A stretch of DNA of 64,000 bases from Fibrobacter sp. UWEL (GTDB taxonomy: Bacteria > Fibrobacterota > Fibrobacteria > Fibrobacterales > Fibrobacteraceae): contig NZ_FRBE01000007.1 of NCBI RefSeq assembly GCF_900142535.1, forward strand, positions 1 to 64,000, read 5' to 3'. Made by a program: the position numbers and the translations under genes. Within the stretch, counting starts at the first letter, position 1; every line of letters starts with the position of its first letter. Under the pieces are notes generated by a model. The model saw nothing but the letters and a program-made list of their open reading frames with translations, searched no databases and had not been told where the DNA came from. Positions 48,025 through 53,252 of the stretch are shown here, one piece after another.

Positions 48025-48108
48025 CTAACCGTAAATCAGTCCCAAGGCGATAGCGATGACTGCAAAAAATGCAATCTGCTTCACGATGGATATATCTTGG
48101 CGATTCAT
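48025..48108 (-). CDS. 27-aa predicted membrane peptide
   Basis: A frame from ATG 48108 to TAG 48025 encodes MNRQDISIVKQIAFFAVIAI followed by ALGLIYG. It has a short polar N-terminus, then a single hydrophobic helix. A strong AAGGAG lies 8 nt before the start. It begins 15 nt after the stop of the CE6 (B) gene and ends just before a terminator, so it would be cotranscribed. Codon use and the clean ribosome site make it more than chance, but no family is known to me. Confidence 0.6.
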   Translation of the reverse strand: MNRQDISIVKQIAFFAVIAIALGLIYG

Positions 48109-49836: not shown

Positions 49837-50003
49837 AACGAGAATTTACAAAGGAGCGACACCCCGTTTTTTAGTAAAAAATCAGTATTTTTTCTTCAAT
49901 CGGTCCTAAATTACGCAATTTTCGCGTTATTATGTAAGTTTTTCAATAAGCGAGCATTCCAATTGGAAAACAAAAAAAGGATTTCTACTTTTCCGCCATG
50001 CAG

Positions 50004-50879
50004 ATGACGAAATTCTACAAGGTGGCCGGCCACGTTTTCCAGGTGAATATTCCGGAGGAAATTGCCCCCGCCCTATTCGCCCTCATGGGTAACTACCAGC
50101 CCTTTGAAGTAACTCCCGCGGAAAACGCCCCCGTTTTTTGCCTGGATGTGGATAGCAATACTTCCCCCGTGGAGTTTGCGGAAGAAACCCGCCAGGAAGA
50201 CGAAGGCCAGGAAATCATCTGCGGAAAATCTCCCGACGGCAAGGACGTCTTTGTATTCTATCTGGGCAAAAAAAACACAGGCGCACTCATTTGCGGCGCA
50301 GGTTTCAAGAACGCCCTCATCAGATTCCCAGCCCAGGAAGCGGATCATTACAGAAAATTCGCCCTGAACAATGGTCTCATGATTTTGTACGCCCTGGCAA
50401 CCGCCGGGGAAATGACCGCCCTTTTCCACTCCGCCGTCATCGACTACGAAGGCAAGGGGTATATGTTCCTGGGCAAGAGCGGCACGGGCAAGAGCACCCA
50501 CGCCCGCATGTGGCTTTCCCGTTTCAAGGAGGCGGACCTCCTGAACGACGACAATCCCGTTGTCCGTTTCGAGGATTCCGGCGCCTGGGTCTACGGATCC
50601 CCCTGGAGCGGCAAGACGCCCTGCTATAAGAACCGCAGGATCCCCTTGCAAGGGATTATTGACTTAAGCCAGGCCCCCGCCAACGTAATCCGCCCCATGA
50701 AGGGGATTGAAGCCTACATGGCCGTGAAGGTCAGTATTTCCGGAATGCGCTGGAATCGTGCCATCGCCGACGGATTGCACAACACGGAAAATCGCCTAGC
50801 CCAAGAAGTAAAGATGTTCCATCTGGATTGTCTGCCCGACGAGAACGCCGCAGAAGTCTGCTACCAGGCCGCACGATGA
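50004..50879 (+). CDS. HPr-kinase-like protein (RiPP-cassette type)
   Basis: This protein of about 291 aa has a Walker A 'GKSGTGKSTHARMW' (about 155-168), preceded by 'FHSAVIDYEGKGYMFLG', and 'LLNDDNPVVRF' (about 177-187), the usual acidic residues of HprK-fold kinases. Such short kinases occur in lasso-peptide and related PqqD-containing clusters rather than as true HPr kinases. No HPr or PTS gene is nearby. The start is either 50004 or two codons earlier; neither has a clear ribosome site. Its stop overlaps the next start (ATGA, 50876-50879). It is first of four overlapping or abutting genes. Confidence 0.75.
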   Translation: MTKFYKVAGHVFQVNIPEEIAPALFALMGNYQPFEVTPAENAPVFCLDVDSNTSPVEFAEETRQEDEGQEIICGKSPDGKDVFVFYLGKKNTGALICGAGFKNALIRFPAQEADHYRKFALNNGLMILYALATAGEMTALFHSAVIDYEGKGYMFLGKSGTGKSTHARMWLSRFKEADLLNDDNPVVRFEDSGAWVYGSPWSGKTPCYKNRRIPLQGIIDLSQAPANVIRPMKGIEAYMAVKVSISGMRWNRAIADGLHNTENRLAQEVKMFHLDCLPDENAAEVCYQAAR

Positions 50880-51322
50880 ACCTCACAGACGATCAGATTC
50901 TCTTGGAAGCGATCCGTATGGTGGAAAGCGGAGTAACCGTCACCTTCCCGGTGAACGGCAGAAGTATGCTGCCCTTCATTATTGGCGGTAGGGAAAGTCT
51001 AGTCCTGACCAAGCCCGAAAATTTCAAGGTCGGGGACATTGTCCTTGCCTATGTGGATGGGAACCGTTTCGTAATCCATCGGGTGGAGCGCATCCAGGGC
51101 GAGAACGTGACTTTGATTGGGGATGGCAACTTGTGTCTGAGGGAACACTGCAAGATTAGTGATGTAAAGGCCCTCGCCACTCACGCCGTTAACGCAAAGG
51201 GAATCCTTAGGGACCTGTACACCAGACGCCGCAGGTTTGCCGCCAAGCTGTGGAAGTGGGCAATTCCCGTCCGAAAATATTTACTTTTTATCTATCGTAA
51301 AACTCACCCAGGAATTTTCTAG
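50876..51322 (+). CDS. S24/S26-like peptidase (SipW-type Ser-His)
   Basis: This 148-aa protein resembles the catalytic domain of signal peptidases. 'TFPVNGRSMLPFI' (about 22-34) holds the nucleophilic serine in G-R-S-M, and 'VLAYVDGNRFVIHRVERIQG' (about 55-75) has His where bacterial leader peptidases usually have Lys, as in SipW/eukaryotic S26B enzymes. 'LIGDGN' follows. The C-terminal ~35 residues are basic ('TRRRRFAAKLWKWAIPVRKY'), perhaps membrane-associating. It could mature a peptide exported by the ABC transporter downstream. It overlaps the kinase gene by 4 nt. Confidence 0.72.
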   Translation: MNLTDDQILLEAIRMVESGVTVTFPVNGRSMLPFIIGGRESLVLTKPENFKVGDIVLAYVDGNRFVIHRVERIQGENVTLIGDGNLCLREHCKISDVKALATHAVNAKGILRDLYTRRRRFAAKLWKWAIPVRKYLLFIYRKTHPGIF

Positions 51323-51324
51323 CT

Positions 51325-51591
51325 ATGAAAATCAAGAACGGTTTTGTACTTCGCGACGTGTGTGGCGAAAAAGTGATTATGGGCGAAGGCGTAGGCGCCC
51401 TGGATTTTGGCCGCCTGCTGTGCCTGAATTCCACCGCAGCCTTCCTGTGGGACGTTGCCGCACAGGGCGATTTCACGGTGACGAGTCTGGCTGAAAAGCT
51501 TTGCGAAGAATACGACGTGACCTTGGACCAGGCGGTCCAGGACGTATCCGCCATTGTGGACCAGTGGAAAGAAGTTAACGTCATCGAATGA
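51325..51591 (+). CDS. PqqD-family protein (RiPP recognition element)
   Basis: An 88-aa PqqD-fold protein, starting 2 nt after the peptidase gene. The N-terminal β strands are followed by 'LLCLNSTAAFLWDVAAQGDF' (about 29-48) and 'LAEKLCEEYDVTLDQAVQDV' (about 55-75), the classic PqqD pattern. In RiPP pathways this domain binds the precursor leader. Here no precursor is recognisable within the window. Its stop overlaps the ABC transporter start by 4 nt. Confidence 0.85.
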   Translation: MKIKNGFVLRDVCGEKVIMGEGVGALDFGRLLCLNSTAAFLWDVAAQGDFTVTSLAEKLCEEYDVTLDQAVQDVSAIVDQWKEVNVIE

Positions 51592-53252
51592 AATACCTAA
51601 CCTGGCTATGGCGTAACTCCCGGGGTGAACGCATCAATATGAGCGTTCGCGTTATGGTGGGCGTCCTCCAGGTTGCCGCTGGGCTGTTGACGATCTGGCT
51701 CAGCAAGAAATTTATTGACGAAACCATCCGGACGGGAACGGACCAGGAAATTGTCCAGATGGTCGCCCTCCTGGTGGGAACTGTAGTTGCCAGCGTTTTC
51801 ATGCGGCAGCTGAATTATTACCTGAACATCAAGAGCGTGACCCGAGGGGCAAACCGCCTGAGGGCCGATGTATTCCGGAAAATTTTCCTGCGGAAACTAT
51901 TCTGCAAGGAAGCCCTACACTCCGGCGACGTATCCTCCCGAGTAATGAAGGATGTGGAAACCGCCTGCGATGTGACCTTCGAGAAATTACCCCAGATAGT
52001 TGTTACCACCGTGCAGCTGGTAGGTGCCTTCCTGATGATGCGCTGGTTTGACCCGCGGCTGGCCTGGGCGCTGTTGCTGACGACGCCCGTGGTACTAGCC
52101 CTAGGGAAGCTGATTGCCAAGCGCCTGCGGAAAATGACCGCGGAAATCCGCGAAAGCGAAAGCCGCATCCAGATGCACGTTCAGGAATGTGCGGAACACG
52201 ACGTACTGATCCGCGCCATGGGCAGTGAAAATTTTGTAGGCGACCTGCTAAGCGAAAAACAGAATTACCTGATGGGCCGCGTGGTCAAGCGAAGCCGCTT
52301 TACGGTCATCGTAAGAATTTTAATGGGACTTGCATTTAGTTTGGGATATATCGTCGCCTTCGTGTGGGGCGGCATCGGGCTTCGTCACGGCGCCATTACC
52401 TTCGGCGTCATGACCTCTTTCCTGCAGCTGGTAGGGCAAATCCAGCATCCCATCTTTAGCCTGCTAAATGCGGCGCCTCAGATGATTCACGCCACCGCAA
52501 GCATTGACCGAATCCAGGAAATATCTTCTAGTGATTGCGAGTTGATCGCAGGTGATCGCGGGTCTGCAGCAAGTGGTCTCGGGTCTGCCGCAGGTAAGGA
52601 CGGCGTCGCCGTCCGCTTCGAAAACGTCACCTTCGGGTACGATGAAAACAGGACCATTCTGGATAATATCAATCTGGAATTCAAGTCCGGCAGTAAGGTG
52701 GCCCTCATGGGTGAAACCGGCGCCGGCAAGACAACCCTGTTCAGGTTGATGTTGGGATTTGTAAAGCCCCTCTCGGGATCTGTTCAAGTCTACCACACCG
52801 CCGGCAGTGCAGCAACTTCAAGAGAATCCGTCGCGGGGGTCGCGACTCGCAGCCACTTCGTCTTTGTCCCTCAGGGGAATTCCCTCATGAGCGGATCCAT
52901 CCGGCTGAATCTCCAGATGGCAAATCCCCAAGCGTCCCTACAGGAGATGGAAACGGCGCTTCATAATGCATGCGCCGACTTCGTGAAGGATCTTCCCGCA
53001 GGTTTAGATACTGAAATTGGCGAAAGAGGTTACGGCCTCAGTGAAGGTCAGGCCCAGCGAATTGCTGTGGCCCGCGGCCTCCTGCAAGAGGGAAGTATTA
53101 TGCTGCTGGACGAAATCAGCGCCTCTCTGGATGCCGAAACCGAACAGGAAATGTACAGCAGAATCTTCAAGGCCTATCCCAACAAGACCATGATCTTCAT
53201 TACCCATCGGGATGCCGTCTGCAAACTCTGCGACGAAACCGTCAAGCTGTAA
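51588..53252 (+). CDS. ABC transporter, fused permease and ATPase
   Basis: This 554-aa exporter half has an N-terminal membrane domain (hydrophobic segments at about 16-37, 62-80, 145-165, 240-262, 270-290) and an ABC ATPase: Walker A 'MGETGAGKTT' (about 374), Q-loop 'FVFVPQGNS' (about 425), a degenerate signature 'YGLSEGQAQR' (about 483) and Walker B 'IMLLDEISASLD' (about 504-515), then H-loop 'FITHRD'. No peptidase C39 domain is present, so processing would rely on the S26-like neighbour. Two low-complexity Ala/Gly/Ser insertions (about 312-335 and 400-420) are unusual for this family. Confidence 0.85.
   Translation: MKYLTWLWRNSRGERINMSVRVMVGVLQVAAGLLTIWLSKKFIDETIRTGTDQEIVQMVALLVGTVVASVFMRQLNYYLNIKSVTRGANRLRADVFRKIFLRKLFCKEALHSGDVSSRVMKDVETACDVTFEKLPQIVVTTVQLVGAFLMMRWFDPRLAWALLLTTPVVLALGKLIAKRLRKMTAEIRESESRIQMHVQECAEHDVLIRAMGSENFVGDLLSEKQNYLMGRVVKRSRFTVIVRILMGLAFSLGYIVAFVWGGIGLRHGAITFGVMTSFLQLVGQIQHPIFSLLNAAPQMIHATASIDRIQEISSSDCELIAGDRGSAASGLGSAAGKDGVAVRFENVTFGYDENRTILDNINLEFKSGSKVALMGETGAGKTTLFRLMLGFVKPLSGSVQVYHTAGSAATSRESVAGVATRSHFVFVPQGNSLMSGSIRLNLQMANPQASLQEMETALHNACADFVKDLPAGLDTEIGERGYGLSEGQAQRIAVARGLLQEGSIMLLDEISASLDAETEQEMYSRIFKAYPNKTMIFITHRDAVCKLCDETVKL

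Follow-up and report, generated by a model that had tools for sequence, protein, structure and literature searches.

A kinase, peptidase, PqqD and exporter cassette of Fibrobacter as the probable core of an LPP-type peptide pathway with precursors encoded in trans

The closest described relatives of the system considered here are the Linear Polyphosphorylated Peptides (LPPs), known from the lpp cluster of Paenibacillus alginolyticus (Popov et al., Nat Commun, May 2026; PMC13381572). According to the main text of that paper, on which our statements about LPPs rest, the cluster encodes a precursor (LppA), a kinase (LppK), a recognition element for ribosomally synthesized and post-translationally modified peptides (RiPP recognition element, RRE; LppB), a signal peptidase I (SpI)-like peptidase (LppS), an exporter (LppD) and a nucleoside triphosphate (NTP) transferase (LppN). 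In B. subtilis, the LppA precursor and core carry one to four phosphates on core Ser3, which depends on LppK; LppS and LppB together take off the LppA leader, and deletion of lppN caused no change. The same text states that LPPs are restricted to Bacillota and that their role is unknown, and words starting with "bacteroid" or "fibrobact" do not occur in it. Here we describe a four-gene cassette in the genome of Fibrobacter sp. UWEL, at positions 49998-53252 of a stretch of 64,000 nucleotides (nt) of contig NZ_FRBE01000007.1 that was analyzed as a whole (the window). The cassette encodes a protein resembling HPr kinases (HprK; gene KIN), an S26-type peptidase, a PqqD protein and an ATP-binding cassette (ABC) exporter. 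We consider it highly probable that it is the core of an LPP-type RiPP pathway in Fibrobacterota, which acts on precursors encoded in trans.

What goes beyond the main text of the LPP paper is the occurrence in two more phyla, a precursor family of a distinct kind, the location of precursors in trans and, in Fibrobacter, their pairing with upstream secreted proteins (33 of 34 loci). The LPP-type pathway would be extended from Gram-positive bacteria (Bacillota) to two Gram-negative phyla of fibre-degrading gut and rumen bacteria. In Fibrobacter, almost all precursors come with a secreted-protein gene of their own, a functional clue that the LPP text does not mention; with it, what LPPs are for can be tested directly in Fibrobacter and Prevotella that can be cultured. 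Searches of the open PMC literature, preprints and supplements aside, showed no account of the cassette or its precursors in Fibrobacter or Bacteroidota. The gene content, the leader motif, the co-occurrence, the pairing and the coding nature of the precursors are computational results.

Cassette proteins and precursor peptides

The four genes lie on a single strand in the order KIN-S26-PqqD-ABC. KIN and S26 overlap by 4 nt, a gap of 2 nt separates S26 from PqqD, and PqqD and ABC overlap by 4 nt. A preliminary description of the window had reported four abutting genes of these kinds and taken them for a RiPP-type maturation and export cassette. The coordinates and family matches bear out all four parts, and the RiPP assignment is supported, but the order in which they were listed was not right, because the kinase stands first and PqqD third.

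The PqqD protein matches PF05402 with 50.6 bits (cut-off 23.4) and is the single match above cut-off in the window genome. Its residues N35, Y63 and D73 are invariant in 23 of 23 homologues and align in HMMER with N33, Y60 and D70 of LppB (9x8z), where N33 and D70 are described as holding the Pro and Tyr of the leader motif YxxP (PMC13381572). The peptidase matches PF00717 with 26.1 bits (cut-off 23.3), and its S30, H68 and D83 are likewise invariant in 23 of 23 homologues; D83 was paired with D93 of LppS through the order of the motifs, without an LppS alignment. The AlphaFold2 model of the peptidase (pLDDT, the predicted confidence, 87.2) has the LexA/UmuD/signal-peptidase fold, with matches to LexA/UmuD, human SPC-A and SipA (best E 1.3e-3). 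The enzyme probably acts in the cytosol, because its N-terminal helix (residues 5-17 of the model) is polar by eye and no membrane anchor is evident. The exporter scores 103.1 bits against PF00664 and 80.1 bits against PF00005, both above cut-off, and reaches no equivalog cut-off among the 25 NCBIfam models listed.

The kinase is under every curated cut-off. Its best NCBIfam match is ScmC (TIGR04249; 32.7 versus 125 bits), and the models for HPr(Ser) kinase/phosphatase are missed (TIGR00679, 15.2 versus 240 bits; PF07475, 15.7 versus 33.3 bits). The motifs SGTGKSTHAR and NDDNP are invariant in 31 of 31 aligned homologues, and PDB structures that match the AlphaFold2 model (pLDDT 92.9) include phosphoenolpyruvate carboxykinase (PEPCK) and HPr kinase/phosphatase (best E 1.5e-7; HprK 5.1e-5). 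When the PDB was searched by sequence alone, neither the kinase profile nor the peptidase profile had a match at E 0.01.

The search for a conserved small open reading frame (ORF) in homologous cassettes, which the preliminary description had proposed, was run by comparing all ORFs of 20-130 amino acids (aa) in the cassette loci with one another, with no motif assumed. Apart from PqqD and alternative frames of the cassette genes, it gave one widespread family of 44 ORFs in 35 loci; 41 of the 44 share the cassette strand, and they are frequently immediately upstream of KIN or of a gene for a PF14907 nucleotidyltransferase (NT). In 89 distinct peptides the leader reads K-x-Y-x-x-P-x-M-x-V-V-x-L ... 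L-L-x-x-S, which is lasso-like. The P and the Y/F are found in 89/89 peptides and belonged to the pattern by which the peptides were collected and anchored; M/L at +2 (81/89) and L/I/V at +13 (87/89) follow. A Ser, which was not part of that pattern, occurs at exactly P+17 in 75 of the 89 peptides and at P+16 or P+17 in 86, compared with 5 to 15 of 89 for nine other two-residue windows. The C-terminal part, of about 21 aa, is variable and acidic, with a net charge of -4.2 on average. Over 10 pairs, leader substitutions give a synonymous proportion (pS) of 0.215 and a nonsynonymous proportion (pN) of 0.046; pN is far under pS, as expected of purifying selection, and therefore the precursor ORFs are genuine coding genes. 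They match no family above cut-off in Pfam or NCBIfam. With a small residue (G/S/A/C) at P+16 in 76/89 peptides and a hydrophobic one at -3, a candidate cleavage site after P+16 would fit, which would make the conserved Ser the first core residue. A second candidate, two residues earlier, would fit by analogy with LppA.

Six matches to the precursor profile at E <=10 are present in the window genome, three on contig C21, one on C3 and two on C25, and the search of the whole genome gave no precursor of this family on the contig of the window (C7). The genome also has two PF14907 nucleotidyltransferase genes, on C24 and C4. It holds, in the letters of the lpp genes, the full set of A (six), K, S, B and D (in the window) and N (two). 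The earlier suggestions that the window lacks a precursor and that one may be encoded elsewhere were therefore correct for this family. The statement that the cassette has no modification enzyme does not hold up, since by LPP precedent the HprK-like protein would be the primary one and the genome has the two PF14907 genes besides.

Co-occurrence and pairing with secreted proteins

The precursor profile matches 75 and the PqqD profile 73 of 111 Fibrobacteraceae genomes. In the 56 high-quality genomes, 38 have both and 18 neither, with no exceptions. A Bacteroidales sample consisted of 295 genomes from the order of Prevotella genome G111, the chosen centre, which is itself a cassette genome; PqqD was found in 33 and the precursor in 10, and all ten (G111 included) are within the 33. 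The 35 Bacteroidota genomes to which 36 cassette loci led all have precursors, in 1 to 30 copies each.

The gene directly upstream of a precursor typically encodes a protein with a C-terminal tail of the type W-F-D-L-K-G-R-K-L-N-x-K-P-T-x-K-G-T-Y-Y-x-N-G-K-K-V-I-V-K. Thirty-six Fibrobacteraceae precursor loci were given, two of them without a parsable peptide, and in the 34 scored the tail is present in 31 by a strict pattern and in 33 by eye. As background, the strict pattern occurs in 23 of the 580 ORFs of >=150 aa in the Fibrobacteraceae loci around the cassette, the partner genes counted. For peptides near a cassette, a tail partner is present in 28 of 29 cases in Fibrobacteraceae and in 11 of 15 by eye (four by pattern) in Bacteroidota. 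A search that began with the tail was given 34 loci, of which 33 could be parsed; 26 of these have a precursor <=420 nt away, versus 196 of 4000 random stretches. The window genome has exactly five matches to the tail profile, and these are the partner genes of its six precursors; because the profile contained some of these tails, their recovery was expected, while the absence of further matches was not. The carbohydrate-active enzymes adjoining the cassette carry a different tail and do not match the profile. The tail is present in 75 of 75 precursor genomes and, with weaker scores (best E 1.2e-14), in 8 of the 36 others.

The partner proteins of the window genome look secreted. One has Listeria-Bacteroides repeats, and the other four have no Pfam family and gave nothing useful from Pfam or NCBIfam. 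SprA, a protein of the type IX translocon, is encoded in the genome, and according to PMC6851124 secretion by the type IX route has been proposed for envelope enzymes of Fibrobacter; by its position and likeness, the tail may be a type IX sorting domain. Since an upstream gene for a secreted protein accompanies nearly every precursor in Fibrobacter, the peptide probably acts jointly with its partner at the cell surface. A bolder version, which we regard as possible although doubtful, is that the phosphopeptide is a dedicated partner of surface proteins, made pairwise with them, which is attached to the protein, anchors it or displays it at the cell surface, rather than acting as a free antibiotic or signal. 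If so, a RiPP would be a building part of the cell surface, and one shared cassette would serve many protein-peptide pairs per genome.

On C21 (L162:6196-10124), tandem pairs of partner protein (599 and 561 aa) and precursor have almost identical peptides, which suggests a recent duplication. In Prevotella loci L089, L077 and L114, the secreted proteins upstream of the kinase resemble C10, C1 or M6 proteases by eye, and some of them have a similar C-terminal tail.

Conservation in two phyla and alternative explanations

Of the 111 Fibrobacteraceae genomes, 76 have a KIN match, which is weak in three (E ~1e-4). Forty KIN-bearing Fibrobacteraceae genomes each contributed one locus (at most 20 kb), examined together with the window, and 33 of the 41 loci have the complete four-gene set in identical order. 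The wide presence of KIN and the preserved gene order indicate that the cassette is not a chance arrangement. Among the eight incomplete loci, L034 has no ABC, L035 no S26 or ABC, and L064 and L066 no PqqD or ABC, while L040, L042, L061 and L063 have KIN without the other genes. Six genomes with incomplete loci (G028, G032, G051, G052, G053 and G090) have PqqD elsewhere; in G028, G051, G052 and G053, KIN stands alone and PqqD is at another place of the same genome. The PF14907 gene is within 25 of the 40 fetched loci and abuts KIN on its upstream side in 24; the copy of L036 scores 149.9 bits (cut-off 31.2). A TldD-like gene, recognized by eye, is near six loci among otherwise unrelated chromosomal genes, and TldD was rejected as a partner.

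From a search of GTDB genomes with the aligned KIN sequences, the best 80 of 593 relatives were kept. Among these 80, 69 are not labelled Fibrobacter and are mostly from Prevotella and other Bacteroidales, many of them from ruminants; most of these 69 Bacteroidota loci have the same gene set. A kinase tree of 97 sequences (38 Fibrobacteraceae including the window, 58 Bacteroidota left from the 69 after filtering by length and score, and one Butyrivibrio) with a midpoint root displays the Fibrobacteraceae as one group nested among Bacteroidota, with one long-branched Phocaeicola row inside it. A single ancient transfer would fit this tree.

The conservation bears on the possibility that this is a remnant or variant lasso-peptide cluster without cyclase and B2 peptidase, whose product is a linear lasso relative. 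The YxxP leader and the discrete PqqD do resemble lasso clusters, the best NCBIfam matches of PqqD are lasso PqqD models, below cut-off (26 bits versus 70 and 80), and its best PDB match is a lasso RRE. However, this gene set, S26 peptidase included, is found repeatedly in two phyla, and a single PF05402 match above cut-off is present in the window genome, and so we think this explanation improbable. Neither a cyclase C nor a B2 peptidase was recognized in the selection of neighbours from the 40 Fibrobacteraceae and 69 Bacteroidota loci, for which no genome-wide family search was made. A simply degraded lasso or bacteriocin locus, the outcome named earlier as the one that would overturn the cassette, was rejected, as in the homologous loci the four-gene set, with no cyclase recognized among the neighbours inspected, is the conserved unit.

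The small peptides might instead come from a conserved tail gene of the secreted proteins, a chaperone or regulator unconnected to the kinase cassette. The pairing with the tail protein is indeed tighter than the adjacency to the cassette, and the precursors of the window genome are on contigs other than that of the cassette. Against this stand the co-occurrence with PqqD, which has no exception in the high-quality Fibrobacteraceae genomes and is 10/10 in Bacteroidales, the position of precursors directly before NT-KIN in the operon at many loci, and YxxP itself, a known RRE motif; we give this alternative little credence. Least probable of all, and very unlikely, is that radical S-adenosylmethionine (SAM) or another modification is the main chemistry with the kinase as accessory, because the maturase family that adjoins the kinase in three Prevotella loci does so in just 3 of the 69 Bacteroidota loci and none was noticed among the Fibrobacteraceae neighbour genes inspected. 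Those three loci (L125, L140 and L149) have a radical SAM/SPASM peptide maturase upstream of the kinase, together with PqqD and Cys-containing YxxP peptides; the L149 copy, which was tested, matches PF04055 and has TIGR04463 as its best NCBIfam match, below cut-off. They are possibly a hybrid subtype.

Several points weigh against the LPP-type pathway with precursors in trans. Over the 111 genomes, 71 have both precursor and PqqD, 4 precursor only, 2 PqqD only and 34 neither, a family-wide figure that is inflated by shared ancestry, and genus g1 alone gives a weaker result (70, 4, 2 and 4; p 6e-4). The four genomes with a precursor and no PqqD are G023, G039, G044 and G079 (65-90% complete); the two with PqqD only are G041, in which PqqD is weak, and G048, which has the cassette and no precursor match. 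The precursor model was built on ORFs near cassettes, and so adjacency is partly by construction, while the genome-wide counts are unaffected. The PqqD profile matches the lasso RRE TfuB1 (E 0.0014) and PbaB1 (0.04) in the PDB better than LppB (0.41), which leaves descent from the Bacillota LPPs unsupported. The LPP consensus given in the main text, YxxPxVLxHQxIxFETxxS, differs from YxxPxMxVVxL...LLxxS here, where the FET cleavage motif is missing, and the Pro-Ser spacing is 17 as compared with 15 in LppA (from P-13 and S3). Finally, every chemical step and the function are what we infer from computation only.

The locus, the proposed pathway and known systems

Table 1. Genes of the window cassette
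Feature	Position	Strand	Evidence
KIN, HprK/PEPCK-fold kinase (LppK-like; ScmC-like), 293 aa	49998..50879	+	motifs and AlphaFold2 fold
S26 signal-peptidase-like leader peptidase (LppS-like), 148 aa	50876..51322	+	PF00717, catalytic residues, fold
PqqD-type RiPP recognition element (LppB-like), 88 aa	51325..51591	+	PF05402, invariant residues
MsbA/CydCD-like ABC exporter, fused permease-ATPase (LppD-like), 554 aa	51588..53252	+	PF00664 and PF00005

The cassette is flanked on the opposite strand by SASA acetylesterases and enzymes of glycoside hydrolase types GH30/GH43 with the carbohydrate-binding module CBM6, in agreement with the divergent esterase neighbours noted previously. An ORF for a 27-aa membrane peptide (48025-48108, minus strand), directly downstream of a SASA/CBM6 esterase gene, has a Shine-Dalgarno-like AGGAG. 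The link to the cassette suggested for it fails, and it was rejected as a precursor: it has no YxxP, and the cassette loci give only weak matches (E >=2), none of them a credible homologue.

We predict the following pathway. PqqD would bind the YxxP leader of a precursor of 40-60 aa, and the HprK-like kinase would phosphorylate the conserved Ser 16-17 residues past the leader Pro. The PF14907 nucleotidyltransferase, encoded elsewhere in the window genome, may then elaborate the phosphate. The S26 peptidase, guided by PqqD, would cut off the leader near the LLxxS motif, and the ABC exporter would presumably move the acidic peptide out of the cell.

The PF14907 gene on C4 (L155:9638-19554) belongs to a polysaccharide locus that also encodes LicD. 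Genes recognized there by eye are those for a TagD-like cytidylyltransferase, a flippase-like protein and glycosyltransferases. A PF14907 gene in one locus with LicD, along with the LPP-type clusters of Bacillota that the LPP text places in capsule loci, hints by analogy at a sugar-like addition to the phosphate.

Among other known systems, SynChlorMet (Scm) has the protein that the kinase resembles most, ScmC, and PqqD is weakly like ScmD. The cut-offs are missed in both cases (32.7 versus 125 bits and 15.6 versus 100 bits), and the radical SAM pair of that system is not near the window cassette. The Butyrivibrio fibrisolvens rumen plasmid pNP243 (NZ_CP146964.1; L225, 6388-8411) has a nucleotidyltransferase, a KIN-like gene, a 57-aa YxxP protein, PqqD, an S24/S26 peptidase and an ABC exporter together. 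Unlike in the window, the precursor is within the cluster and has a Cys/Pro-rich core, and polysaccharide genes adjoin; the plasmid kinase is only about 31% identical, and that across half its length. Paeninodin-type lasso peptides, as described in the main text of PMC13381572, share the HprK-like kinase, NTP transferase, discrete RRE and a related leader motif, but the leader here has Y, not W, and the RRE has N at the position taken by G in paeninodin RREs.

The comparison with the LPPs of PMC13381572, as far as its main text goes, is the closest. Both systems have the same core set of SpI peptidase, discrete RRE, HprK-like kinase, NTP transferase and MsbA-like exporter; four of the core genes are in the window, and the NTP transferase (PF14907) is on C24 and C4. 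Both have a YxxP leader, a conserved Ser shortly past the leader and a variable C-terminus. The Asn and Asp of the LPP RRE are matched by N35 and D73, and S29, H68 and D93 of LppS by S30, H68 and D83. The LPPs are from Bacillota, whereas the present systems are from Fibrobacterota and Bacteroidota, with several precursors per genome, all of them in trans in the window genome and paired with tail-bearing secreted proteins. By gene set and motifs, the window pathway would be a variant that works like the LPP pathway.

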